DNA of 20,567 nt from a virus, in IMG/VR virus record IMGVR_UViG_3300025264_000147, positions 1-20,567 of that record. One strand, 5' to 3'. The notes under the pieces were generated by a model. The model ran no database searches, was not told the DNA's origin, and saw only the letters and a list, made by a program, of their open reading frames with translations. Made by a program: the position numbers and the translations under genes. Shown piece after piece: positions 2,426 to 17,904 of this stretch. Each line of letters begins with the position of its first letter. Within the stretch, counting starts at the first letter, position 1.

Positions 2426-5190
2426 TAGCCAAATATATCCCCTATTACACTATCAAACAATCTTCCTAATTTAGTTGAGTTACCTTTATTTTCTGGATTT
2501 TCCTGTATTAATTGGAAAGCATAACTAAGCATTTCACGATCTATATCATCTTGACTTGCATTTTTATTTCTAAGACTTAGGAAATTTTGTTTCCATGCTT
2601 CCATATGATTCCCCATCATAGTTTGTATAGCAGGATCGTTAGTCCAATTATCAAGATAACTCTGCATTAATTTATCATTTTTAAGACTTGGATTTATTCT
2701 TTCTAGTTCTGCTTTAAAGCTATCATTATTCATACCTCGTCCAAACAAACCTTCTAATTCTAAACCTGTTGCTTCGTAATCTGCTTTATCTAAAAGTCTA
2801 TGTATTTTAGCATCACCAAATAAAGACTTTCTCAATGCAGCTTGAGCCGTGGTAAGTTTAGCCCCAGTAAGTATTCTGGTTATATCATTGGTATACTTTT
2901 GTTGTGCTTGAGCACTTTCACGAGAAGCTAACCCTTCTTGTATTTTTACCTTAAATTCTAATGCACCTAAATCAGCAGCACGTTCAGCTTCTCCAATTTT
3001 TTGTAGTTTCTCTATGGATGGAGGAGCAACTCTTTGTGCAACAGAAAGTAAACTCTCTCCCTCTCTGGGTGCTGTTGAACCAAGTCTTGCAGCATAGTCT
3101 GCCAAGGTCAACCATTTATCAAAACCATATCCCTTTTTTTGATACTCTGCTAAAAGTTCTTCATGAGCTTTACGTAATGATTCGGGATATACTTCAGTCT
3201 CTGGAGATTTAGGAATACCTTGCAAGTAAGCCATCATTGGATCAAGAGGATCATCAGCAGGATCACCAACACCATTAGTATCAGAAACAGTAACATCTGT
3301 ATCCTCTATAGGAGTTATAGGAGTTTCTCCTTTACTTACTAATTCTACTGCCTCTTGAGAAGATAAGGTTGGATCACCTCGTTGTAATTCAGCACCTTGT
3401 GTTTCTAAGGCTACTTCATGTGGAAATATATCTTTTGGTCCAAACATTTTAGTACTCGTTCGATCACGAAATGCTTTTGTAAGTGCATCATATTCTTCCA
3501 CAGACATACCGGGATGAGTTTCTTCTATTCTTTTTGCTTTTGAAGCTTTAAAAGCAGCTTGAGATGGACTTTCCACTACTTCTTCAAAACCAAATTCTTG
3601 GTTAGGATCAGTTTCCTCTGGAAAATTTTTCCAAGTCTCATATATTCTAGCAATTGTTTCATCTGGAAGTATATTTTTCCACACAGAAGGAACTTGTCTC
3701 TCTTCTATACTGAGAGGAACTACACTTGTCCCTCCTACCTGACCGGGAATATTCTGATGGCTAGACACAGTAAGTCCAGCCAGACCACCAGCACTACGAC
3801 CTATAAGTTTCCTTCTACGTAGTTCATCTATAATACTATTCAGATCAGTAGCAGTAGGAGCAGTCGAGGAAGGAGTGAAAGCAGGTGTATTTGCACCACC
3901 TCCTGCACCAGAAGCATGCCAACCTCCTAAATTAACTCCCAAAGGCCCACCACCCTGATATTGAGGGACACCTACTCTGGAAGAAGGCCCAGAGAAGAGG
4001 TTGTAGGGGGGTCTAAGGGGGTTCGTGGGGGTGCCACCACCCAAAAGACCTACAAGCCCTCCAGCCTTCTTAAAACCCCCAAAGGCTCCATATAGCCCTA
4101 CACCAGTACCTACACCACCCAAAAGTGTCTGGGCAAGGGAAGGTGCCAGAGGTTCTCGTTGAGATACCACTGTTTGTTGTGAAGGAGTAAGAGGGAAGCC
4201 TCTGATAATAGATCCATATCTTTGCAGGGCTGTTTGAGGGAATGCTTTCTCCTCTTCAAATTCTCTACGAGCAATATCCAGAGCCTGTTGACTCCTAGCC
4301 TGTTGAGCTTCTCCTACACCAGCCAGACCTGTTATGTCTCCTCTGGCCCTTTGAAAAGCACTTTCTCCCAGACCAGCAAATTGTCTACCACCAGCCAACT
4401 CTCTGGCTCTTTGTGCTTCAGCAGCCCTTTGAGCATTCTGGAAAGCTGTAGATAAACCTGCTGCTTGAATATCACTCAGTTGTCTTTGCAGATTTCTATT
4501 GGCCTCTGCCTCTACAATAGCTTGTCTGGAACCACCAAAGGAACCAGCCCCAACAGCCTGTGCAGCCCTTCCTTGTTGTGCTATATCTTCATCTCGTCTG
4601 GCTTCTCTCTTGGCAATGTCCACTACATTCTGTAGAAAGGGGTCCATCCTACGACCAATATCCCCTGCTCCTATCTCTGCTGTACCCAGAGCAGTTGCAG
4701 CCAAGGCAGGAGCATAGTATGTTCCAGCAGCCCCTAAAGGAGTACCAGCAAGTCCCTGTGCTCCAAACTGTTGTCTGCCTGTGGCAAATGCTGCTTGTTG
4801 TTCAGGAGTAAATGCAGCCAGTTGTGGTCCTTGAAATGGGATATATCCTTCTGCTTTTTCTCTTCCAAATTCTCCTTTGGCTTCTCCCAGAATATCAGAA
4901 ATAAAAGGTTTTAATTCAGTAGGAAATTCTGATGTTTGAGTAACTGTTTGATTAGCAGGAGGAGGAGGAGGAGGAGAACCACCACCTTTATATTCTCTTA
5001 AACCAGTAATTTCATTGATAGTTCCTGACCCACCAAGAGATTTCAGTAGAGATGCTTCAAATGTATTTACATGAGCAAGCTCTGTATCACCCTCTATGCC
5101 ATATCCTGCAAGTTCATTGTATAATTCCTTGAACAATAAAATCTTTTCAGGCATATTTAAATTTGAAATATATTTTTGTGTATCAGTCAT
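2425..5190 (-). CDS. Large putative internal virion / DNA-ejection protein (921 aa)
   Basis: The N-terminal 65 residues are charged, followed by a Gly-Pro linker with six prolines (73-78). Residues about 88-330 form an Ala/Gln/Arg-rich, probably helical domain containing PFISDILGEA (95-104), MDPFLQNVVDIAKREA (182-197) and GAGSFGGSRQAI (214-225). I recall this arrangement from many uncultured marine phage virion proteins. Residues 351-386 are Gly-rich and hydrophobic and end in KKAGGLVGLLGG. A second AGGLAGL follows at 468-473, then an acidic, low-complexity second half. The start lies in an overlap with the GNAT-like gene, with AAGGAAATAGG just upstream of the ATG. Codons for residues about 80-410 (roughly 3960-4950) are much more GC-rich than the rest. 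Ejection is the likely role by position; a scaffold or tail role is not excluded. Confidence 0.85.
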   Translation of the reverse strand: MTDTQKYISNLNMPEKILLFKELYNELAGYGIEGDTELAHVNTFEASLLKSLGGSGTINEITGLREYKGGGSPPPPPPANQTVTQTSEFPTELKPFISDILGEAKGEFGREKAEGYIPFQGPQLAAFTPEQQAAFATGRQQFGAQGLAGTPLGAAGTYYAPALAATALGTAEIGAGDIGRRMDPFLQNVVDIAKREARRDEDIAQQGRAAQAVGAGSFGGSRQAIVEAEANRNLQRQLSDIQAAGLSTAFQNAQRAAEAQRARELAGGRQFAGLGESAFQRARGDITGLAGVGEAQQARSQQALDIARREFEEEKAFPQTALQRYGSIIRGFPLTPSQQTVVSQREPLAPSLAQTLLGGVGTGVGLYGAFGGFKKAGGLVGLLGGGTPTNPLRPPYNLFSGPSSRVGVPQYQGGGPLGVNLGGWHASGAGGGANTPAFTPSSTAPTATDLNSIIDELRRRKLIGRSAGGLAGLTVSSHQNIPGQVGGTSVVPLSIEERQVPSVWKNILPDETIARIYETWKNFPEETDPNQEFGFEEVVESPSQAAFKASKAKRIEETHPGMSVEEYDALTKAFRDRTSTKMFGPKDIFPHEVALETQGAELQRGDPTLSSQEAVELVSKGETPITPIEDTDVTVSDTNGVGDPADDPLDPMMAYLQGIPKSPETEVYPESLRKAHEELLAEYQKKGYGFDKWLTLADYAARLGSTAPREGESLLSVAQRVAPPSIEKLQKIGEAERAADLGALEFKVKIQEGLASRESAQAQQKYTNDITRILTGAKLTTAQAALRKSLFGDAKIHRLLDKADYEATGLELEGLFGRGMNNDSFKAELERINPSLKNDKLMQSYLDNWTNDPAIQTMMGNHMEAWKQNFLSLRNKNASQDDIDREMLSYAFQLIQENPENKGNSTKLGRLFDSVIGDIFG
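4006..4031 (+). other. Three regularly spaced G-runs (possible G-quadruplex element)
   Basis: The plus strand carries runs of 6, 5 and 5 G (4006-4011, 4017-4021, 4027-4031) separated by two 5-base loops. On the coding strand this encodes part of a Pro-rich turn in the 921-aa protein with CCC codons, unusual for this AT-rich genome. Only three runs of three or more G are present; the nearest fourth tract is GG at 3999-4000, so a classical four-tract quadruplex is not complete. Confidence 0.4.
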
Positions 5191-5614
5191 TTCCTATTTC
5201 CTTCACTAGAACAGTATAATATTTTTTATATCCTTTATTCTTTAGTATCTTTGTCCAACCATCTCTACCAGCAGTTTCTAAATAACGTATTCCATTTTCT
5301 TTACAAAAACTTTCTACAGGCTCTATCCACTTATCAATCCAACTATCAATTGTATGATCTTTAGCTCCTGCTAAATGTACTCGTAAATGTTTCTGTCTTG
5401 GATATTGATGTATCTGTGTTGTGAATGCCAGAACAATATTCTGTTTTTCTTCATCTATACCAAGCCAAAGCTGTTGTGCTTCTCCTTTTAACCAGTTCTT
5501 AATGTCTTCCAGAGTACTCTCATCTAAAGTTCTTTCCATTGGTTTCTGTAGAAGAGGTTCTACATAAGGCCATATCACATCTATATGTCTAGCCTCTACT
5601 CTATATATAATCAT
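5183..5614 (-). CDS. GNAT-fold-like protein, comparable to T7 internal protein gp13 (143 aa)
   Basis: The size and pattern are those of a single-domain GNAT acetyltransferase fold: an N-terminal strand (MIIYRVEARHIDVIW), a helix, a central LAFTTQI strand, LRVHLAGAKDHTIDSWIDKW at 77-96 where motif A is expected, and a C-terminal GWTKILKNKGYKKYYTVLVK (119-138) resembling the 'GF/GY' end of GNAT proteins. The acetyl-CoA-binding R/Q-x-x-G-x-G/A signature is not intact, so catalysis is doubtful. T7 encodes a similar small GNAT-like protein, gp13, just before its internal core proteins. Here the gene sits between two giant putative ejection proteins, which suggests a virion assembly role. It abuts the upstream gene at 5614/5615 and overlaps the next by 8 bases. 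The function is inferred; the fold call is moderately sure. Confidence 0.75.
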   Translation of the reverse strand: MIIYRVEARHIDVIWPYVEPLLQKPMERTLDESTLEDIKNWLKGEAQQLWLGIDEEKQNIVLAFTTQIHQYPRQKHLRVHLAGAKDHTIDSWIDKWIEPVESFCKENGIRYLETAGRDGWTKILKNKGYKKYYTVLVKEIGND

Positions 5615-8010: not shown

Positions 8011-8294
8011 TAGTTAAATGCTTCCCATGCTTGTGTACCTGCCGTGCTAACATAACCCATGAACTTACCTTTACTAACTGAATAAGCTATGTTTCCCTTA
8101 TCAGGACTTTTAATACTACCTACCGTTACTACAGCATATATATTAGTAGATGGTGCTGCATCCTGTACTTGATCTCGTGTATCCATCTCATTAATTAAAG
8201 CTGCTCCCCATTGCTGGAATCGACCATAAACATAATCTACTCCTCTTTTAACATCATCAGGGAATATTAATGGAAAATCTGGATACCTAGCCAT
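8010..8294 (-). CDS. Small hypothetical phage protein, possibly virion-associated (94 aa)
   Basis: The protein starts MARYPDFPLIFPDDVKRGVD and has two aromatic-rich helical segments (YVYGRFQQWGAALI), then a short beta-rich part (NIYAVVTVGSIKSP). There are no cysteines and no transmembrane helix. A good GGTGGAG Shine-Dalgarno lies at 8304-8310, and both ends use TAATG overlaps, so it is embedded in the coupled chain of structural genes. I do not recognise the family with certainty. A small tail or head completion factor is possible. Confidence 0.75.
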   Translation of the reverse strand: MARYPDFPLIFPDDVKRGVDYVYGRFQQWGAALINEMDTRDQVQDAAPSTNIYAVVTVGSIKSPDKGNIAYSVSKGKFMGYVSTAGTQAWEAFN

Positions 8295-8563
8295 TACTTA
8301 CATCTCCACCTTTTTCTTGCTTGCCTTAATCTTGAATTAGGATTCTTGGCAGCTTTAGGAAACTTTTTCATTTGACCTTCTGAACGAGCACAATAACTTT
8401 TTCTTCTTGATGCTCGTTTACCTGTTGGTTTCTTTTCTGTTACGGCAGTCTTTAATTTACTACCGGGATTTTCTCGTCTATATTTTCTAACTCCTTTTGT
8501 AGTCATACCAGCACCTGACTTAGTAGATCTTTTATGACCACCTCCTATAGTATATCCCTTCAT
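8294..8563 (-). CDS. DUF5872-like, extremely basic small phage protein (89 aa)
   Basis: By my count 30 of 89 residues are Lys or Arg and only 3 are acidic. The sequence follows the pattern I know as DUF5872: GAGMTTKGVRKYRRENPGSK (18-37), then LKTAVTEKKPTG, RRKSYCARSEGQMKKFPKAA and a C-terminal NSRLRQARKRW. Such proteins occur in phages and in some algal viruses. Their function is unknown to me. The charge suggests nucleic acid binding, for example on packaged DNA. Two cysteines (in SYCARS and near the C-terminus) are present. The gene follows the gp10-like hub after two bases, with only a weak ribosome site, and couples by TAATG to the next gene. The family call rests on remembered motif similarity. 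Confidence 0.85.
   Translation of the reverse strand: MKGYTIGGGHKRSTKSGAGMTTKGVRKYRRENPGSKLKTAVTEKKPTGKRASRRKSYCARSEGQMKKFPKAAKNPNSRLRQARKRWRCK
8304..8310 (-). promoter_or_regulatory. Shine-Dalgarno GGTGGAG for the 94-aa gene
   Basis: GGTGGAG is read on the minus strand, about 9 bases before the ATG at 8294, inside the last codons of the DUF5872-like gene. It supports independent initiation in addition to the TAATG coupling. Confidence 0.6.
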
Positions 8564-10451: not shown

Positions 10452-11393
10452 TTATCTATCAAAATCCTTTAATACAACTGCATCAATAGTAGTAGCACTT
10501 CTAGCATTATATACTAACATATCAACATCACTTGCTCCTGTACTTAAAGTAGGAACAGTAGCAGATACAAATTGCCATGCAGTATTATATCCTAATGTTC
10601 TACTGCCTGTACTATCTTGTATAAAATATATACTTCCTCCTTGTCCTACTGTACAATTAGTAGGAGCTTTTAAAGTACGATTACCTCCAAGTGTAACAAG
10701 GAAGTTATTTGCCAAGGCAAAGTTTACACTGATACAAGCAGCATCTGTTACAGTTACAATAGCATTATAAGCTCTTGCATTTGCCCCTATAATTAAATTA
10801 CCGGGAGTACTGGCAGAAGCTCCTACAATATATTTAGTTCCTATTAAGGAAACATTGGCAGAAGTAGATACTCTAAGATAACGTATATCGGCAAGAGAAG
10901 TGTCAGGAACATTGGTAGTACACACTCCTATATCTGCACTGGCTGCTGTACCAAGATTAAATCCTGTTGCATTTAAAGAATATACAGACGTACCATCACA
11001 GATAACTAATCCTACTGCACCTAATGGTACATCATATCCATCACCACTGGCTGTTTTTATTTTAACAATATCAGAGGCTGTAGTATTGGCTGATACCTTA
11101 TTATTAATTACATAACTTTTAGAATTAGCAGGTATTACTAAAGATATAGTATTATTTGCTCCACCTACTGATCCTTTCAATTCCAAGAAAGCAGATCGTG
11201 GAACATCAGCACCACCTTGTACTGCTGATAAAGTTACCGTAGCTGCTGATCCAATTGATACAGTAGTATAGGAAGCAATTGCATCATCGACAAGACTGAT
11301 GACCTGATCATTAAGAACAGTTCCCCACGTATTAGGATTATCACCATCCCCTTGTTTTGTCAGTCTTATATTTGAAGTGTACGTTGATGCCAT
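10452..11393 (-). CDS. Second tail fibre protein, shares C-terminal domain with the large fibre (313 aa)
   Basis: The N-terminus, SNIRLTKQGDGDNPNTWGTV (7-26) then LNDQVISLVDDAIA, is the virion-attachment-type start seen in many phage fibre proteins. The middle is Thr/Ser/Ala-rich and beta-strand-rich. Residues about 228-313 (NFLVTLGGNRTLKAPTNC, GQGGSIYFIQDSTGSRTL, TAWQFVSATVPTLSTG) match the last ~90 residues of the 1066-aa fibre in order and spacing, so the two proteins share a terminal domain. TAGGAGAAGAAAATG gives a strong ribosome site. It lies directly before the gp10-like hub gene. I infer a tail appendage that touches the host or partners the long fibre. Confidence 0.8.
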   Translation of the reverse strand: MASTYTSNIRLTKQGDGDNPNTWGTVLNDQVISLVDDAIASYTTVSIGSAATVTLSAVQGGADVPRSAFLELKGSVGGANNTISLVIPANSKSYVINNKVSANTTASDIVKIKTASGDGYDVPLGAVGLVICDGTSVYSLNATGFNLGTAASADIGVCTTNVPDTSLADIRYLRVSTSANVSLIGTKYIVGASASTPGNLIIGANARAYNAIVTVTDAACISVNFALANNFLVTLGGNRTLKAPTNCTVGQGGSIYFIQDSTGSRTLGYNTAWQFVSATVPTLSTGASDVDMLVYNARSATTIDAVVLKDFDR

Positions 11394-11405: not shown

Positions 11406-11759
11406 CTTAAAATATGGGTTCTTATCATAGGGAACACTCATCTCTCCTCCAAGAAGTCCACATGTTACTTTATCTGGAAAAGATAGCATAAATAACCACC
11501 TTCCAGAATTTTGATTTAAAAACAATTCCGAAAGATTTCCATTCTTATCTATTCCCCACCAAACTTTAACTACTTGTAACCTATCTTTTAAATCTTGATA
11601 TACCAAATTACTATGAGAACACATCATATTCTTTTGAAACATACGAGGAAAAATCTGTGTTTGATCTGGCATACTCTCTTGTGCATTTGTATTAGATGCA
11701 AAAGTAAAAATTACTCCTAAACAAATAATTGCAAATATAGTTATCAATAAAGTTTTCAT
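11403..11759 (-). CDS. Small secreted (periplasmic) protein with signal peptide (118 aa)
   Basis: The first 26 residues are a clear signal peptide: MKT, a hydrophobic core LLITIFAIICLGVIFTF, and a cleavage site after NTNA before QES. The mature part is about 92 aa with two cysteines (47 and 100) placed to form a disulphide. It has a WWGIDKNGNLSELFLNQNSG stretch (67-86) followed by GRWLFMLSFPDKVTCGL. This 'G-x-NG-x-x-x-LF ... G-x-W ... P-x-G/K-x-x-C' layout resembles small secreted proteins I associate with alphaproteobacteria and their phages, but I cannot name the family. It starts in an ATGA overlap after the 184-aa gene, with AGAGGAAC upstream. A protein exported from the infected cell inside a tail gene cluster suggests action on the host surface, such as superinfection exclusion. 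This role is speculative. Confidence 0.75.
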   Translation of the reverse strand: MKTLLITIFAIICLGVIFTFASNTNAQESMPDQTQIFPRMFQKNMMCSHSNLVYQDLKDRLQVVKVWWGIDKNGNLSELFLNQNSGRWLFMLSFPDKVTCGLLGGEMSVPYDKNPYFK

Positions 11760-12310
11760 CTGTTCCTCTTATAATGTTCTATACTTGTACTATCAGGCCA
11801 TACATTATATTGTTCACCTTCATTAAAAATTTCTGAATGTACTACTTTAAATTCATCTAAAGTATTACAATTATCTATAGCAGTACATATTGTATTACAA
11901 AAAGTACGAATAGAAGCAACATATTGTATTACATCATTTGGAATTGCTTGTGTATTATCATATACATATCTTTGAGTTAACCATGCAAAATATTGAATCT
12001 GTCTATATGCTTCATGGTCTGTTGCTGCTTTACTATTTATCTTTAAGTCTGATAAATCTTTTTCAGTTATCGTAAAATCTTCATCAACTGTTTCTTCACT
12101 TGCATTCCACGTATAAGAAGAAGATCCCATATCATAAAAATTAGTATCTGGTGAAGTCTTTCTTTTCACATCATAAATATGAATTCTTTTCTTTTCTTCT
12201 TTTGTATACATGGTAAACATATTAGATGGATATCTTACATTATCCAATATAATAGATTTAGGACTATAATATATTTCTTCTACTGTTCCATCTTTAACTA
12301 AAGCCCACAT
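11756..12310 (-). CDS. Hypothetical phage protein, possible fibre-assembly type (184 aa)
   Basis: The N-terminus, MWALVKDGTVEEIYYSPKSI followed by a YPSNMFTMYTKEEKKRIHIYD segment, resembles proteins placed after fibre genes in marine phages. These have an 'MWA-V-DG-V-EI ... YP..F...' beta-rich start that I associate with fibre assembly or accessory roles. The second half is helical, with YRQIQYFAWLTQRYVYDNTQ (101-120), and has four cysteines or near neighbours. No membrane segment is seen. It begins with a TAGGAGT ribosome site and overlaps the secreted-protein gene by four bases (ATGA). It is low in G+C (27-33% in sampled lines), like the two genes around it. The function is not known. Confidence 0.7.
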   Translation of the reverse strand: MWALVKDGTVEEIYYSPKSIILDNVRYPSNMFTMYTKEEKKRIHIYDVKRKTSPDTNFYDMGSSSYTWNASEETVDEDFTITEKDLSDLKINSKAATDHEAYRQIQYFAWLTQRYVYDNTQAIPNDVIQYVASIRTFCNTICTAIDNCNTLDEFKVVHSEIFNEGEQYNVWPDSTSIEHYKRNR

Positions 12311-12315
12311 TTTTA

Positions 12316-12322
12316 ACTCCTA
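12316..12322 (-). promoter_or_regulatory. Stop codon fused to Shine-Dalgarno (TAGGAGT)
   Basis: The TAG stop of the glycosyltransferase gene (12322-12320) forms the start of TAGGAGT, five bases before the ATG of the 184-aa gene. It is the same design as at 11399-11405. Confidence 0.65.
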
Positions 12323-13276
12323 TTTATATTTTATTTCTAAATCTTGTTTAATACTTTTAAAAGGATCTAACCAAGTTCCATATTTTTGTTGTCTATATAA
12401 AGTTACACTATCATAATAAGGAGACTTATTTCCCGGTAATGCCCATATATAATAAGATAATACTGGAACTATAATCCATGTTTCAATTCCCATTGCTGCT
12501 GATAAATGTGCAACACTTGTACAGGAAGAAATAACAAGTTCACATTCACTAATTGATTTTCTAGTAGTTTGCCAATCATCTAACGAAGCCTGTTTCATCC
12601 ATTCTGGTTTTAATTCTGTATCTTTATCTCTTTGTAATGAAACACAATCATATCCTTTAACTGCATCAAATAATAAATTAGCTGGAAAATATCTATGTTG
12701 CTCATGTTCAAATTTTGGATTACCACTCCATCTTACTCCTATTCTTCCTGGTATAGTATCAGCAGTACGAGAAATATAGGGAGTTCCTTTTAAATCTTTA
12801 TATTCATAACCTAAAGCTACTATTGAAGACATTGAAGGAAGCCAGTAATCGTGATAGACTTTACAAGCAACATCATGTTGTACTACTGCAAACTCTTCTG
12901 CAAAAATTGATGCTATTTCTGTTGAACAAGAAATTATAACACGATTCTCCAATTCTTTTAAATCAAAAGCAAATCTATAACTTTTTATTTGATCTCCTAT
13001 TCCTCCTTCTAAACTTAATAAAACTGTTCCAGATTCTTTATTCCAAATAGGTTGTTTAGATCCTATATGTCTATTTCCAAATACATTTTCAAATCTACCT
13101 TTATCTAATAATTTATGTCCTTCCAATAATTTACCTTGACGTAATAAATACCAACCTCGATTAAATGCTGCACGATTACAAGTTGGAGTCTCTTCCTTTA
13201 ATTGTTGAGCAATCAACCAACCCTTTTTAAAATCACCATGAATACCTGCATCAAGTTGTTCATCTAATTTTCCCAT
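12320..13276 (-). CDS. GT9-like (heptosyltransferase-type) glycosyltransferase with TPR-like N-terminus (318 aa)
   Basis: Residues about 10-60 look like one or two TPR-type helical hairpins (CNRAAFNRGWYLLRQGKLLE). SLEGGIGDQIKSYRFAFDL (88-106) corresponds to the Gly-rich 'GG-x-GD' loop of family 9 glycosyltransferases. RIGVRWSGNPKFEHEQHRYF (178-197) resembles the central 'G-x-x-W-x-G-x-x-x-x-x-D/H-x-x-R' donor-site motif. SISECELVISSCTSVAHLSA (241-260) resembles the 'D-L-V-I-x-x-D-S-A-x-x-H-x-A-x-A-x-G' motif, with Ser-Cys in place of Asp-Ser. Bacterial GT9 enzymes transfer heptose or similar sugars to LPS. TPR fusions of this type are frequent in marine bacteria and phages. The substrate here is unknown. 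It is embedded in tail genes, so it may modify fibres or the host surface. G+C is low (20-35% in sampled lines). Confidence 0.8.
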   Translation of the reverse strand: MGKLDEQLDAGIHGDFKKGWLIAQQLKEETPTCNRAAFNRGWYLLRQGKLLEGHKLLDKGRFENVFGNRHIGSKQPIWNKESGTVLLSLEGGIGDQIKSYRFAFDLKELENRVIISCSTEIASIFAEEFAVVQHDVACKVYHDYWLPSMSSIVALGYEYKDLKGTPYISRTADTIPGRIGVRWSGNPKFEHEQHRYFPANLLFDAVKGYDCVSLQRDKDTELKPEWMKQASLDDWQTTRKSISECELVISSCTSVAHLSAAMGIETWIIVPVLSYYIWALPGNKSPYYDSVTLYRQQKYGTWLDPFKSIKQDLEIKYK

Positions 13277-13277
13277 A

Positions 13278-14432
13278 CTATCTTACACCAAAACTCCAAT
13301 CATAACCTGCACTAACAGCCCTCCAATCTGACTCAGACCCAACTTGATTTGGAGAACTAAGAAAAGCTGTTGTATTTCCAAGACCTAATTGACCACCATC
13401 ATTTCTTCCCCATGTCCATAAAGTTCCTGTTTCTCCATCTCCAGAATCTCTGATACCAATACAATGCCCTCCTCCTATTTGAATATCTATCCAATCAGAA
13501 CTATCTCCTATTTGAATAGGAGAAGAATAAGAACCTCCTGCACCTGAAGAACTTGTTGCAAGCATTCCATTATAATTATAACCCCATCCCCAAATTGTTT
13601 CATCAGTTTTTAACACTACAACAGTATATCCATTAGACCCAAGAGCAGTTATTTTTGACCAATCTGTTAAGGAACCAACTTGAACAAATGTTCTCCTATT
13701 AGTTGTAGTTCCATCTCCATTTACTCCACCACCACCATTGCCGGTTGAATACATAGCACCTCCTGCAATGGCAAAAGAATTATCGGCAGCACATCGACAA
13801 CTTGTCCAATTTGTAGCCGATCCAATTTGAACAGGGGAACTAGAGGTAACCCAATCTTGTCCATTAGCTTCCCTACCACCCCATGTAAATAACTTTCCAT
13901 CACGAATACCCATACCAGTATTCTTTCCTATTCCCGTATCAGTCCAGCCTGTATCAGAACCTACTTGCACTGGAGATGAATAGTTTGTTTTATCACCCAA
14001 ACCTAATTGAGCAGAATAATTTCCTCCCCATACCCAAAGAGTTCCATCAGTTTTTACAGCAAGAACTCCTTGAGAACCAGTGAGTCTATCCCAATCTGTT
14101 AAGGAACCAACCTGCACTGGAGAGGAATAATCTGTTAAATTCCCAACTCCCATTTCTCCATATGTTTGGTTTCCTGTTGCCCATGTAGTATTGTCAGCTT
14201 TAACAAAATGATTAGTGGCATCTCCTGGTGACATTATTCCATTCTGAATATTTAATCCTCCTGCCCAATCCGTTAATGTACCAACTTGAACCGGAGATGA
14301 TCTATTGGTAGTGTCACCAAGACCTAGTTCACCACTACCATTAAGGCCCCATGCATATAAAGAAAATCCAGCACCACCAGAAGTAGCAGCAGCAGCAGCA
14401 CCAGCTAATAAAGCATTTTGAAATATACCCAT
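13278..14432 (-). CDS. RCC1-repeat beta-propeller protein, seven repeats (384 aa)
   Basis: A short hydrophobic start (MGIFQNALLAGAAAAATSGG) precedes seven RCC1-type repeats. Each ends in a 'S-P-x-Q-V/I-G-x-x-x-D/N-W' element, at about 46-56, 104-114, 153-163, 199-209, 248-258, 305-314 and 361-370. Repeats 1, 3, 6 and 7 show the classical W-G-x-N-x-x-G-Q/E-L-G core (LYAWGLNGSGELGLGD at 25-40; LWTWGRNDGGQLGLGN at 338-353). Repeats 4 and 5 are degenerate. The final SFGVR strand would close the ring with the first repeat. Seven repeats make one full propeller. In eukaryotes RCC1 is a chromatin-bound GEF, but bacterial and phage RCC1 proteins are usually surface or binding proteins. The gene couples by TAATG to the long fibre, so a tail or host-binding role is the best inference. 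Confidence 0.9.
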   Translation of the reverse strand: MGIFQNALLAGAAAAATSGGAGFSLYAWGLNGSGELGLGDTTNRSSPVQVGTLTDWAGGLNIQNGIMSPGDATNHFVKADNTTWATGNQTYGEMGVGNLTDYSSPVQVGSLTDWDRLTGSQGVLAVKTDGTLWVWGGNYSAQLGLGDKTNYSSPVQVGSDTGWTDTGIGKNTGMGIRDGKLFTWGGREANGQDWVTSSSPVQIGSATNWTSCRCAADNSFAIAGGAMYSTGNGGGGVNGDGTTTNRRTFVQVGSLTDWSKITALGSNGYTVVVLKTDETIWGWGYNYNGMLATSSSGAGGSYSSPIQIGDSSDWIDIQIGGGHCIGIRDSGDGETGTLWTWGRNDGGQLGLGNTTAFLSSPNQVGSESDWRAVSAGYDWSFGVR

Positions 14433-17400
14433 TATGCATATGCCTGTGAAATAATAGCCTGAATATCTCCACCTACACCATCGGAAGATGCAGATACAAC
14501 TATGTAGTCTAATCTATCTACTGCATTATCATCTGTAGATAAGGTAGGATCAGTCCCACCTATAAATTTCCAATCAGCATTATAAGCCATCGTACCACTA
14601 CCTCCATCTTGAACTAAGAAAATACTTCCTGTTTGACCTGTTCTACATCCTGTAGGTTTAGCCAATGTATGTGCTGCCGTTACAGATGTAGAAAAGTTTT
14701 GTGCTGTACCAAATGCAAGAGATACAGAAGTTATACCATTAATAGCTGTGGCACATACAACGGCTGCTGCACTCTTGGTAAGTTGAAGTTGTCCTTCCAA
14801 ACTACAATTACCAGATACTCTGACTGTACCAAGGAATCCTGCATTTCCTGTTATTGTAGCTGTACCAAGTAAATTCGTAGCTCCTCCCACACTTAATGCA
14901 CCAGCTATACTGGCAGCACCTCCTATGGTGGTAGTACCTCCAACTGTCAGATTACCTACCAGTATCGAATTACCAGAGACACATACATCATCGTCAAATT
15001 CTGCTTTACCAGCTACTGTTAATGTACTTAGTAAATTAACTGCACCTCCTACACTTAATGCACCAGCTATACTTGTAGCACCTCCTATGGTAGTTGTACC
15101 ACCTACAGCTAAGTTACCTACTAGTATCGTATTCCCTGAGACACATACGTCATCATCAAATTCTGCTTTACCTACAACAGTTACTGTACCAAGGAAATTA
15201 GCAGCCCCTCCTACACTAAGAGCACCAGCAATACTAGTTGCTCCTCCTATGGTAGTTGTACCTCCAACTGTCAGATTACCTACAAGTATCGTATTACCTG
15301 ATACACAAACATCGTCATCAAACTCAGCTTTACCAACTATAGTAGCAGTACCACCAACTCCAAGATTTCCTGTAAGAGTTGTATTACCAGCTATGGTAAC
15401 AGTACTGGCAAAATGAGCAGCACCTCCAACACTTAATGCTCCTGCTATACTTACAGCACCACCAATTGTAGTAGTACCTCCTACTGTTAGATTACCGACA
15501 AGTATAGAGTTACCAGAGACACAAACATCATCATCAAATTCTGCTTTGCCTACAACTGTAAATGTACCACCAACTCCAAGATTGGCAGTAAGAGTTGTAT
15601 TACCAACTATTGTTGCAGTACCACCTACAAATAAATTTCCACCTACTGTAGCATTACCAACTGATATATTACCTTCAATTGCAACAGGAACATTACTAAG
15701 ATTAGCACCATCACCATAAAAGGCAGAGGCACATACTCTAGCATTTGCAGCTTGTACATTTGTACCTGCAATTGTTACAGTACTGGCAAAGTTAGCTGCA
15801 CCTCCAACACTAAGAGCACCAGCAATACTTGCAGCCCCTCCTATAGTTGTTGTACCTCCAACTGTTAAATTACCTACAAGTATAGAGTTACCAGAGACAC
15901 AAACATCGTCATCAAATTCAACCTTGGATGCAAATGTAGCTGCACCACCTACACCTAATGTACCTGTAAGAGTTGTGTTACCAGCTATGGTTACTGTACT
16001 TGCAAAGTGTGCAGCACCACCTACGGATAATGTACTGGCAAGACTTACTGCACCTGCAACAGTAACTGTACTTGCAAAATGTGCAGCACCTCCAACACTA
16101 AGAGCACCAGCAATACTAACTGCTCCTCCTATTGTAGTAGTACCACCTACAGTTAAATTACCAACAAGAATAGTATTACCAGAGACACATACGTCATCGT
16201 CAAACTCAGCTTTACCTGCCACTGTTACCGTACCAAGTAAATTCGTATTACCTCCAACACTAAGAGCACCACCAATACTGGCAGCACCTGCTACTGTTGC
16301 TGTACCTCCTACAGCCAGATTACCAACTAGGACTGTATTACCAGATACACATACGTCATCGTCAAACTCAACCTTGGCAGCAAAGGTAGCAATACCTGTT
16401 TGTGCCAATGTCCCACCAAGAGATGTATTACCTGCTACATCAAGAGTACTTGCTAATGATGTTGCTCCTGATACACGAACCGTACCAAGAAAACCAGTAG
16501 CTCCTGATACAGTAGCTGTACTCAGGAAATTAACAGCACCACCTACACTAAGAGTACCACCAATCGTAGCATTACCTGTTATACGTAAAGCTGAAACAGA
16601 AGTAGCACCAGTAGCTGGAACATTTGTCAGATTAGAACCATCTCCATAAAAAGCAGAAGCACAAACTTTAGCATTAGCTGCCTGTATGCCAGTACCAGCT
16701 ATGGTAACAGTTCCTGTTATATTGAGATTTCCACCTAAAGATGTATTACCTACAACGGATAAAGCTCCTCCTACACCAAGAGAATCTGCCATTGTAACGG
16801 CTCCAGCTATGGTGACTGTATTTGCCACATTCAATGTACTGGCAAGAGATACTGCACCTCCTACATTCAAAGTACTGGCAAGACTAGTTGCTCCTGCTAC
16901 AGTTACAGTACCAAGTAGATTAGTAGCTCCACCTACAGAAAGAGCACCAGCAACACTGACGGCTCCTCCTATAGTAGTTGTTCCACCTATGTTAACATTA
17001 CCAGATACAGATACATTTGTTTTAAATGTACCAGCACCTGAAACTGTTACGGTACTTGCAAAAGTAGCTGCACCTGTTCCTTTAAATGTACCACTTACGG
17101 ATACATTACCAGCTACATCCAAGGTACTTCCCAGACTTACTGCACCTGTAATAGTTGTGGTTCCACCTACTGCAAGATTCCCTACAAGTATAGTATTACC
17201 ACTTACACATACGTCATCGTCAAATTCTACTTTACTTACAAATTGAGAAGTTCCACTTACATAGGCATTTCCAACTACGGATATATTACCTACACATACA
17301 TTCCCACCTACACTAGCATCAACTCCTGATAAATTAGATCCATCTCCATAAAAAGCAGAGGCACATACTTTAGCATTAGCTGCCTGTACATTTGCACCAG

Positions 17401-17632
17401 CTATGGTTACTGTACCAGCAATACTTACATTTCCAGATGCAGCTAAAGAACCTACAACATCCATTCTTCCAGTTGCTTTTACTGCATTCGTAGCAACCAT
17501 AAAAGAAATATTAGTTCCATCTCCAGTTTGAAGTTGGGTAAGAGAAGCACTTACACCTCTATTAGCACTAACACCTAATTTTACGATCTGCTTATAGGTA
17601 TCTGATATTTGTCTTCCAGTTAATGTACTCAT
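14432..17632 (-). CDS. Large repetitive trimeric-type tail fibre protein (1066 aa)
   Basis: The N-terminus MSTLTGRQISDTYKQIVKLG, then SLTQLQTGDGTNISFMVATN, is the attachment-type start of marine phage fibres. Residues about 50-970 are short beta repeats of the type 'GNLTVGGTTTIGGAVSIAGA', as in beta-helical or beta-roll trimeric fibres. They include eight copies of FDDDVCVSGN and three of VCASAFYGDG. The last ~90 residues (SIFLVQDGGSGTMAYNADWK, then PTLSTDD) form a globular end domain also found in the 313-aa fibre. I chose ATG 17632, which overlaps the upstream stop as ATGA, over the in-frame ATG 17647 five codons earlier. The protein is very likely the long host-recognition fibre. High repetition makes copy number prone to change. 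Confidence 0.9.
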   Translation of the reverse strand: MSTLTGRQISDTYKQIVKLGVSANRGVSASLTQLQTGDGTNISFMVATNAVKATGRMDVVGSLAASGNVSIAGTVTIAGANVQAANAKVCASAFYGDGSNLSGVDASVGGNVCVGNISVVGNAYVSGTSQFVSKVEFDDDVCVSGNTILVGNLAVGGTTTITGAVSLGSTLDVAGNVSVSGTFKGTGAATFASTVTVSGAGTFKTNVSVSGNVNIGGTTTIGGAVSVAGALSVGGATNLLGTVTVAGATSLASTLNVGGAVSLASTLNVANTVTIAGAVTMADSLGVGGALSVVGNTSLGGNLNITGTVTIAGTGIQAANAKVCASAFYGDGSNLTNVPATGATSVSALRITGNATIGGTLSVGGAVNFLSTATVSGATGFLGTVRVSGATSLASTLDVAGNTSLGGTLAQTGIATFAAKVEFDDDVCVSGNTVLVGNLAVGGTATVAGAASIGGALSVGGNTNLLGTVTVAGKAEFDDDVCVSGNTILVGNLTVGGTTTIGGAVSIAGALSVGGAAHFASTVTVAGAVSLASTLSVGGAAHFASTVTIAGNTTLTGTLGVGGAATFASKVEFDDDVCVSGNSILVGNLTVGGTTTIGGAASIAGALSVGGAANFASTVTIAGTNVQAANARVCASAFYGDGANLSNVPVAIEGNISVGNATVGGNLFVGGTATIVGNTTLTANLGVGGTFTVVGKAEFDDDVCVSGNSILVGNLTVGGTTTIGGAVSIAGALSVGGAAHFASTVTIAGNTTLTGNLGVGGTATIVGKAEFDDDVCVSGNTILVGNLTVGGTTTIGGATSIAGALSVGGAANFLGTVTVVGKAEFDDDVCVSGNTILVGNLAVGGTTTIGGATSIAGALSVGGAVNLLSTLTVAGKAEFDDDVCVSGNSILVGNLTVGGTTTIGGAASIAGALSVGGATNLLGTATITGNAGFLGTVRVSGNCSLEGQLQLTKSAAAVVCATAINGITSVSLAFGTAQNFSTSVTAAHTLAKPTGCRTGQTGSIFLVQDGGSGTMAYNADWKFIGGTDPTLSTDDNAVDRLDYIVVSASSDGVGGDIQAIISQAYA
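14820..17300 (-). repeat. Tandem protein-coding repeats inside the long fibre gene
   Basis: Eight copies of a unit centred on EFDDDVCVSGN plus 'S/TILVGNLTVGGTTTIGGA' are spread across the gene, spaced from about 160 to 860 bases with shorter related strands between them. Three copies of a second unit, 'QAANAKVCASAFYGDG', lie near 15700-15780, 16625-16690 and 17335-17400. Amino acids are nearly identical between copies while third codon positions differ (for example catcatcgtc, gtcatcatc and tcgtcatcatc for the Asp run on the plus strand). Boundaries are approximate. Confidence 0.9.
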
Positions 17633-17904
17633 ATTGCTTGCCACCATCTATCTTCTGCATCCCAATTATTAGTAGCAGCTTCCCAATTAATTTGTCTGCC
17701 ACCAGTATCAGGACGAGGGTTACGTATTATTGGATTATCACTTACATCAGGAACCTTGTTTAAAGGACTATTCTTTAAATCATATGCTCCATCAAAATCT
17801 TGTGGGCATACCAGCATTCCATAACTATTTAATCTCATAACTCTATGTGGATACACAAATCCACATGTATCACACATTGCTAAAGCATTTTTATTACTTG
17901 CCAT
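17629..17904 (-). CDS. Small zinc-ribbon-like phage structural protein (91 aa)
   Basis: The N-terminal half has ALAMCDTCGFVYPHRVMRLN (7-26) and GMLVCPQDFDGAYDLKN. Cysteines at 11, 14 and 33, with Asp or His as a possible fourth ligand, give a zinc-ribbon-like knuckle. The 'CD-x-CGF ... VCPxDFE/D' pattern is typical of a small protein encoded next to tail genes in many podoviruses and siphoviruses. The C-terminal half is Trp/Asn-rich (NWEAATNNWDAEDRWWQAI). It follows the gp4-like gene after one base and overlaps the long fibre gene by four bases (ATGA), so it may help attach or assemble the fibre. The fourth metal ligand is not obvious and the role is inferred from position. Confidence 0.8.
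   Translation of the reverse strand: MASNKNALAMCDTCGFVYPHRVMRLNSYGMLVCPQDFDGAYDLKNSPLNKVPDVSDNPIIRNPRPDTGGRQINWEAATNNWDAEDRWWQAI

Follow-up and report, generated by a model that had tools for sequence, protein, structure and literature searches.

A phage RCC1-type propeller gene and its putative glycosyltransferase partner behind a long tail fibre

What does a propeller of the RCC1 type do in the tail-fibre cluster of a phage? Phage RCC1 proteins are annotated as agents of chromosome or DNA condensation, and the literature has taken its cue from that label. The question is raised here by a 20,567 nt stretch of an IMG/VR virus record (IMGVR_UViG_3300025264_000147; hereafter the window, with all positions counted on the whole stretch), in which such a gene (384 aa; 13278..14432, minus strand, with its ATG at 14432 and its stop at 13278) lies between the genes for a long tail fibre and a putative glycosyltransferase. 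Gene neighbourhoods point instead to an adhesin that is mounted on the fibre and served by a glycosylation enzyme of its own. The reading preferred here, with a probability of about 0.55, is that the propeller is a fibre-mounted adhesin glycosylated by a dedicated partner enzyme, in the manner of AIDA-I and AAH or of flagellin and FlmG.

In the proposed mechanism, the partner is a cytoplasmic enzyme that would combine a substrate-binding module of tetratricopeptide repeats (TPRs) with a GT-B catalytic domain of the heptosyltransferase type. This enzyme would recognise the repeated propeller, probably by its SSPxQ[VI]GxxTxW repeat ends, and glycosylate it in the cytoplasm ahead of virion assembly, and in many relatives a fused sulfotransferase would modify the glycan further. 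Such modification would yield an adhesin or receptor-binding protein built of repeats and bearing sugars in a regular array. Docked by a short, exchangeable N-terminal leader, the propeller would be exposed on the virion. Its likeliest position is the end of the long fibre encoded just upstream, or close by, where the decorated disc would contact or sample the host surface. If this is true, a receptor-binding module decorated in this way is present in hundreds of phage genomes and can be recognised by two genes and one motif. The pair would also amount to a compact, soluble system for protein glycosylation whose acceptor motif can be tested.

Fold of the propeller and its repeat ends

The propeller contains seven repeat ends that fit x[P/F]xQ[VI]GxxxxW, six of them matching the strict form SPxQ[VI]GxxxxW. 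Composition-preserving shuffles of the protein contained a mean of 0.001 repeat ends and a maximum of 1. In order along the protein, and all on the minus strand, the copies are SPVQVGTLTDW (residues 46-56; 14265..14297), SPVQVGSLTDW (residues 104-114; 14091..14123), SPVQVGSDTGW (residues 153-163; 13944..13976), SPVQIGSATNW (residues 199-209; 13806..13838), the degenerate fifth copy TFVQVGSLTDW (residues 248-258; 13659..13691), SPIQIGDSSDW (residues 304-314; 13491..13523) and SPNQVGSESDW (residues 360-370; 13323..13355). Matches to Pfam RCC1 (PF00415; 1.4e-30, 106 bits against a cut-off of 21.7) and WD40_RLD (PF25390; 9.5e-46, 157.2 bits against a cut-off of 150) were obtained, as well as to PHROGs 4219, 7220 and 16766, each of which bears the name 'regulator of chromosome condensation'.

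An AlphaFold2 model, built on an alignment with 23 relatives, reached a pLDDT of 82 and a pTM of 0.83, with low confidence at residues 1-20 and 58-70. The 27 strands listed for the model, plus one bridge, fit seven blades of four strands in which the N-terminal strand would close the last blade and the ring. Structure comparison (Foldseek and VIA-align) placed the model closest to HERC2 RLD2 (Z 48.1, rmsd 1.6 Å, 345 residues), followed by UVR8 (Z 42), human RCC1 (Z 40.6) and BLIP-II (Z 26). The eukaryotic proteins have the same fold (Z 40-48), but at 19-24 % identity and with a different repeat motif. BLIP-II of Streptomyces is a prokaryotic propeller of the RCC1 type that binds protein and inhibits beta-lactamase; we know of no glycosyltransferase partner for it. 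An earlier note on this DNA, made from the sequence alone, had taken the seven repeat ends to form one closed propeller, and the motif count against shuffles, the Pfam matches, the model and the HERC2 match confirm this.

The same note implied that RCC1 repeats are unusual in phages, which is less so than it supposed, as PHROG families and virion proteomics already include phage RCC1 proteins. Mass spectrometry has detected RCC1-like proteins in the virions of Escherichia coli phage W70 (three, W70_237-239) and of Cronobacter phage GAP32 (gp1) (PMC11370258, PMC5259590). These belong to the same propeller family, the window protein matching PHROG 4219, and are given a role in DNA condensation there by name. 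The top matches among viral structure predictions were further phage RCC1 proteins, and the GAP32 RCC1 protein was among the fold matches; two lower viral matches were a protein named for the T7 tail-fibre N-terminus and one named tail fibre. In relatives, RCC1 repeats are fused to Ig-like or Gly_rich_2 domains. The N-terminal domain of locus entry L018 had no match when searched in phage records.

The fibre slot, its exchangeable leader and its rate of change

The propeller lies in an operon behind the gene for a long repetitive tail fibre (14432..17647, minus strand; 1071 aa from the ATG at 17647, 1066 aa if counted from the following Met), which matches PHROG tail and baseplate families. 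The stop codon of the fibre gene and the start codon of RCC1 have a single base in common, in the sequence TAATG (14430..14434, minus strand). The sequence 5' of the RCC1 start, CTATTATTTCACAGGCATATGCATA, lacks the AGGAG found before many neighbouring genes, and this absence would fit translational coupling of the propeller gene to the fibre gene.

Residues 1-20 of the propeller, MGIFQNALLAGAAAAATSGG (14373..14432, minus strand), form a leader that is of low confidence in the model, with a tentative helix at 6-16, and are a candidate for an exchangeable anchor to the virion or fibre. The proposed dock is the exchangeable C-terminal tip of the fibre (about residues 950-1071; 14432..14800, minus strand; phrog_4757), which ends in SASSDGVGGDIQAIISQAYA. 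Leader and tip are modular. Related phages in which both the fibre and the gp10-like gene are retained have, in exactly this slot, a gene that opens with the same leader as the propeller, MG[VI]FQNxL(L/M)xGAAAAA (leader A), and preserves the one-base overlap, but the body behind the leader is a different one: LamG-like, SPRY plus DUF7483, or a glycine-rich domain. All 11 distinct leader-A genes directly after a fibre stood behind the fibre end SASSDGVGGxI(Q/H)xxxSxxY, and all five genes with a second leader, MPN[IL]RRGMM (leader B), and a readable upstream gene stood behind the end FITTDGGxIWHGMVxSADSK. Leader type therefore tracks fibre-tip type, and the two travel together, as a docking pair would. 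This supports a suggestion of the earlier note, that the N-terminus anchors the protein to the tail, as does the presence of the leader at the head of other adhesin-type bodies in the same slot. One body in the leader comparison (L151), labelled RCC1 through a loose pattern match, was rejected as an RCC1 protein and reads as DUF7483-like by sequence resemblance to its neighbours. Elsewhere in the window, a 313-aa protein (10452-11393) has a C-terminal domain (phrog_4757) in common with the tip of the 1071-aa fibre, and two proteins of the cluster thus appear to end in the same kind of tip.

The propeller gene evolves fast. When the window was compared with its two closest relatives showing differences (L007 and L008), identity was 95 % for the propeller, 99.5-99.7 % for the fibre and 99.7-100 % for the enzyme. 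The ratio of non-synonymous to synonymous change (dN/dS) was 0.64 (L007) and 0.80 (L008) for the propeller, against 0.11 and 0.07 for the fibre and 0.05 (L007) for the gp10-like gene, and the excess of amino-acid change in the propeller over the pooled other genes was significant in both comparisons (p 3e-4 and 2e-3). A comparison of the locus in relatives had been proposed in the earlier note, and its outcome is that the propeller changes faster than either the gp10-like gene or the fibre. Substitutions were concentrated in residues 120-214, around blades 2-4 (16 of 18 for L008 and 10 of 18 for L007). This clustering gives some support to the idea that one face of the propeller has specialised, and a recombined patch is a possible source of it. 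As a gene in a fibre slot, the propeller combines modular exchange with fast change, the pattern looked for in a phage receptor-binding protein or adhesin, and receptor binding by it is plausible.

The family name suggests another function for the propeller, either the condensation or organisation of DNA or an action on a GTPase of the Ran kind. Phage papers infer a DNA role from this name (PMC7247149, PMC11370258), but the location in a tail-fibre cluster and a fibre-associated leader common to LamG, SPRY and glycine-rich bodies make such a role highly improbable. The adhesin-type fusions in relatives argue the same way, as does the cultured Synechococcus phage S-SRM01 (L049), where an RCC1 gene follows, and overlaps, the gene for the long tail fibre distal subunit. 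Both name-based functions, Ran exchange and DNA condensation, were set aside, there being no supporting neighbour, although no search was aimed at a gene for a GTPase partner.

The partner enzyme and its pairing with propellers in viruses

The enzyme gene (12320..13276, minus strand) starts one base 3' of the propeller gene and encodes 318 aa. In its predicted structure (pLDDT 94, pTM 0.92), TPR helices (residues 1-66) are followed by a GT-B glycosyltransferase fold (residues 83-318). The N-terminus matches TPRs by structure and the consensus TPR by sequence profile, and the GT-B domain matches the lipopolysaccharide (LPS) heptosyltransferase WaaC (Z 15.6, 222 residues) and TibC, which heptosylates the adhesin TibA (Z 14.7, 231 residues). 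Three residues, G94, D95 and H257, are invariant in an alignment of 21 members, the distant enzyme of S-SRM01 among them; D95, in an N-terminal G-D motif and a candidate for the catalytic Asp, falls at WaaC residue 13, matched by aligned offset only. The catalytic domain was recognised only through the predicted structure: a single-sequence PDB search returned nothing useful, and a profile search mainly designed TPR proteins.

Most viral relatives of the enzyme are about 590 aa long because an extra domain is fused in front, a sulfotransferase in the two examined (L081:7212-8981 and L060:1227-2966). A methyltransferase-like domain lies behind the enzyme in L048:7071-8786 and at the rear of the enzyme of BUCT-ZZ01, a cultured Synechococcus phage that, like S-SRM01, has both the enzyme and RCC1. 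One 1349-aa protein (L276:1649-5698) comprises sulfotransferase, enzyme, methyltransferase, TPR and GT41 parts.

Pairing of the enzyme with RCC1 genes is near-obligate. Of the enzyme's 80 closest viral relatives, 76 had an RCC1 gene in the fetched locus; the four without one had the enzyme at a contig end. Conversely, among 42 viral loci found through the propeller, the enzyme was in the fetched stretch in 29 and elsewhere on the record in five more, in one of them weakly. Paired genes were always on the same strand; in loci with an RCC1 gene upstream of the enzyme the median gap was 1 nt (65 of 72 within -80..+60), and 31 loci had RCC1 on both sides of the enzyme. The divergent S-SRM01-type enzyme was accompanied by RCC1 genes in all 47 of its loci. 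In S-SRM01 itself, further RCC1 genes alternate with genes for the enzyme, a 2OG-Fe oxygenase, a sulfotransferase, a glycosyltransferase and an epimerase, and this stretch, which lies behind the long tail fibre, has the appearance of an island for adhesin decoration. A tblastn search of 50,697 phage records found the enzyme in five, four of which were among the top RCC1 records; none of the five was of the W70 or GAP32 type, W70 itself not having been looked up. The earlier note, whose account of the propeller is upheld for fold and anchor, had overlooked the adjacent TPR-glycosyltransferase and its link with RCC1. In one case (L046:2447-16162, and L047) the enzyme is encoded about 30 kb away, in the same record, from a phage protein of 4571 aa in which many RCC1 repeats occur together with Reelin subrepeats.

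As an unselected control, 79 tail loci were picked through the gp10-like gene, regardless of RCC1 or enzyme. Five had both genes, 74 had neither and none had one alone (p 4e-8). Among the 47 control loci with a homologous fibre N-terminus, 42 had neither gene. This indicates that the enzyme goes with the propeller rather than with the fibre.

Bacterial pairs, the repeat motif and competing explanations

The enzyme also adjoins RCC1 genes in bacteria, including Bdellovibrionales, Patescibacteria, Methylobacter, Planctomycetota and others, with some pairs on multi-megabase contigs. RCC1 repeats were present in 90 of 141 Bdellovibrionales genomes and a close enzyme in 10. The SSPxQ[VI]GxxTxW motif was conserved in enzyme-linked bacterial repeats (W 65 %, Q 78 %, G 67 %) and in phage repeats (W 81 %, Q 85 %, G 84 %), and the other Bdellovibrionales RCC1 repeats sampled were without it (W 9 %, Q 23 %, G 12 %). 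Copies per Bdellovibrionales genome were counted by a blind DNA pattern, and at least four were found in 7 of 10 enzyme-positive genomes against 0 of 131 enzyme-negative genomes (p 6e-10). Motif and enzyme are thus associated, and, as far as sequence goes, the motif is a signature of the enzyme-linked RCC1 subfamily and not of RCC1 proteins generally. One genome (G042) had no RCC1 gene within 19 kb of the enzyme and 24 motif copies at RCC1 loci elsewhere, an apparent pairing in trans.

Several linked bacterial RCC1 proteins start with twin-arginine (Tat)-type signals such as SRRDFLK, TRRQFLE and SRRTFLV; in Bdellovibrionales, proteins of this type stand beside the enzyme in L266, L270, L271 and L345-L348. 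Signals of this type, which direct export of folded protein, would allow prior glycosylation in the cytoplasm and suggest that a folded, possibly pre-glycosylated propeller is exported in these bacteria. The occurrence of the same pair in Bdellovibrionales and other bacteria, with Tat-type signals there, suggests that surface adhesins are exchanged between phages and bacteria. We would put at even odds the broader proposal of a widespread, dedicated glycosylation system for propeller adhesins, common to phages and bacteria. In it, a TPR-GT-B enzyme would coat every blade with sugar, using the repeat end as its acceptor or as the signal it recognises; in many phages a fused sulfotransferase would then add sulfate, and the phage receptor-binding protein would itself be a glycoprotein. 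The motif may be the acceptor or the site of recognition, or may just mark the linked clade structurally.

Known systems provide precedents. AIDA-I with AAH and TibA with TibC each join a repeat adhesin to a dedicated cytoplasmic heptosyltransferase of the BAHT family (PMC4358343), and the GT-B fold of the window enzyme matches TibC; the putative substrate differs in being a propeller rather than an autotransporter, and the window enzyme has TPR helices. FlmG, the flagellin O-glycosyltransferase of Caulobacter, owes its specificity to an N-terminal domain and serves several paralogous flagellins with one enzyme (PMC7591256). It is likened to the window enzyme, by description, in its modular N-terminal domain and glycosyltransferase domain, and differs in acting on flagellin. 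Phage RCC1 proteins and their presence in virions were already known; no report linking RCC1 propellers with such an enzyme was found in the full text of open-licence papers. A prasinovirus paper was discarded, since the 'RCC1' matches examined in it (PMC12906663) belong to Roscoff strain codes such as RCC1123 and not to propellers.

Several observations weigh against a fibre-mounted propeller with a dedicated enzyme. A Pfam search with the window enzyme returned no family even at E 1; as this includes glycosyltransferase family 9, the enzyme is not filed as GT9, and membership of GT9 or BAHT is not claimed. The five positives of the control represent about three independent lineages, and the agreement of leader with fibre tip could be linkage over about 100 bases. 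One phage (L025 and L028) has a motif-type RCC1 gene and no enzyme on contigs of 54-64 kb, two loci (L262 and L264) have the enzyme without a local RCC1 gene, and distant enzymes (25-29 % identity) occur without RCC1. Three enzyme-positive Bdellovibrionales genomes had 0-1 strict motif copies and two negative ones had three, and plain co-inheritance within a single clade may explain why motif and enzyme occur together. The association reaches its limit at a family without RCC1, to which searches with a distant enzyme (MW202512) led. Given these exceptions, the claim is confined to a single clade of the enzyme.

The phage of L025/L028, with the propeller and no enzyme, also counts for an alternative in which the enzyme modifies something else. 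Its target could be a glycan on the surface of the host, so as to mask receptors or exclude superinfection, or else the long fibre or a further tail protein; the propeller would then be a receptor-binding protein matched to that modification. Phage glycosyltransferases that alter the host surface are well known, and the LPS enzyme WaaC is the nearest fold. This alternative is nevertheless considered unlikely, since the enzyme follows RCC1 and not fibre type, pairs with RCC1 in bacterial genomes too, carries a TPR module as in the protein-acting OGT, and is associated with only one RCC1 repeat motif.

Adjacent genes can also hitchhike, and an old neighbouring pair of enzyme and motif-type RCC1 might have spread as a cassette with no functional link, leaving the propeller to bind alone. 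Exchange of this kind between conserved flanks is seen in L056 and L065, where the fibre shaft is 88-89 % identical to that of the window and tip, leader, propeller and enzyme are different. But the link survives divergence of the enzyme to about 27 % identity in S-SRM01, and it spans phages and several bacterial phyla, changed gene order and the trans case of G042. A cassette without function is accordingly judged quite improbable, and a propeller adhesin glycosylated by its partner enzyme would account for the link.

Three further genes of the window were noted. A 184-aa protein beginning MWALVKDG (11756-12310) has no functional match; it belongs to a family that many relatives retain at the same place, with the adhesin slot on one side and the gp10-like gene on the other. 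A 143-aa protein of the virion cluster (5183-5614) has, by eye, the look of a GNAT-type acetyltransferase. An 89-aa, very basic Lys/Arg-rich protein (8294-8563) is present in L006; a search for it in L007, whose genes on either side are 99-100 % identical, did not find it.
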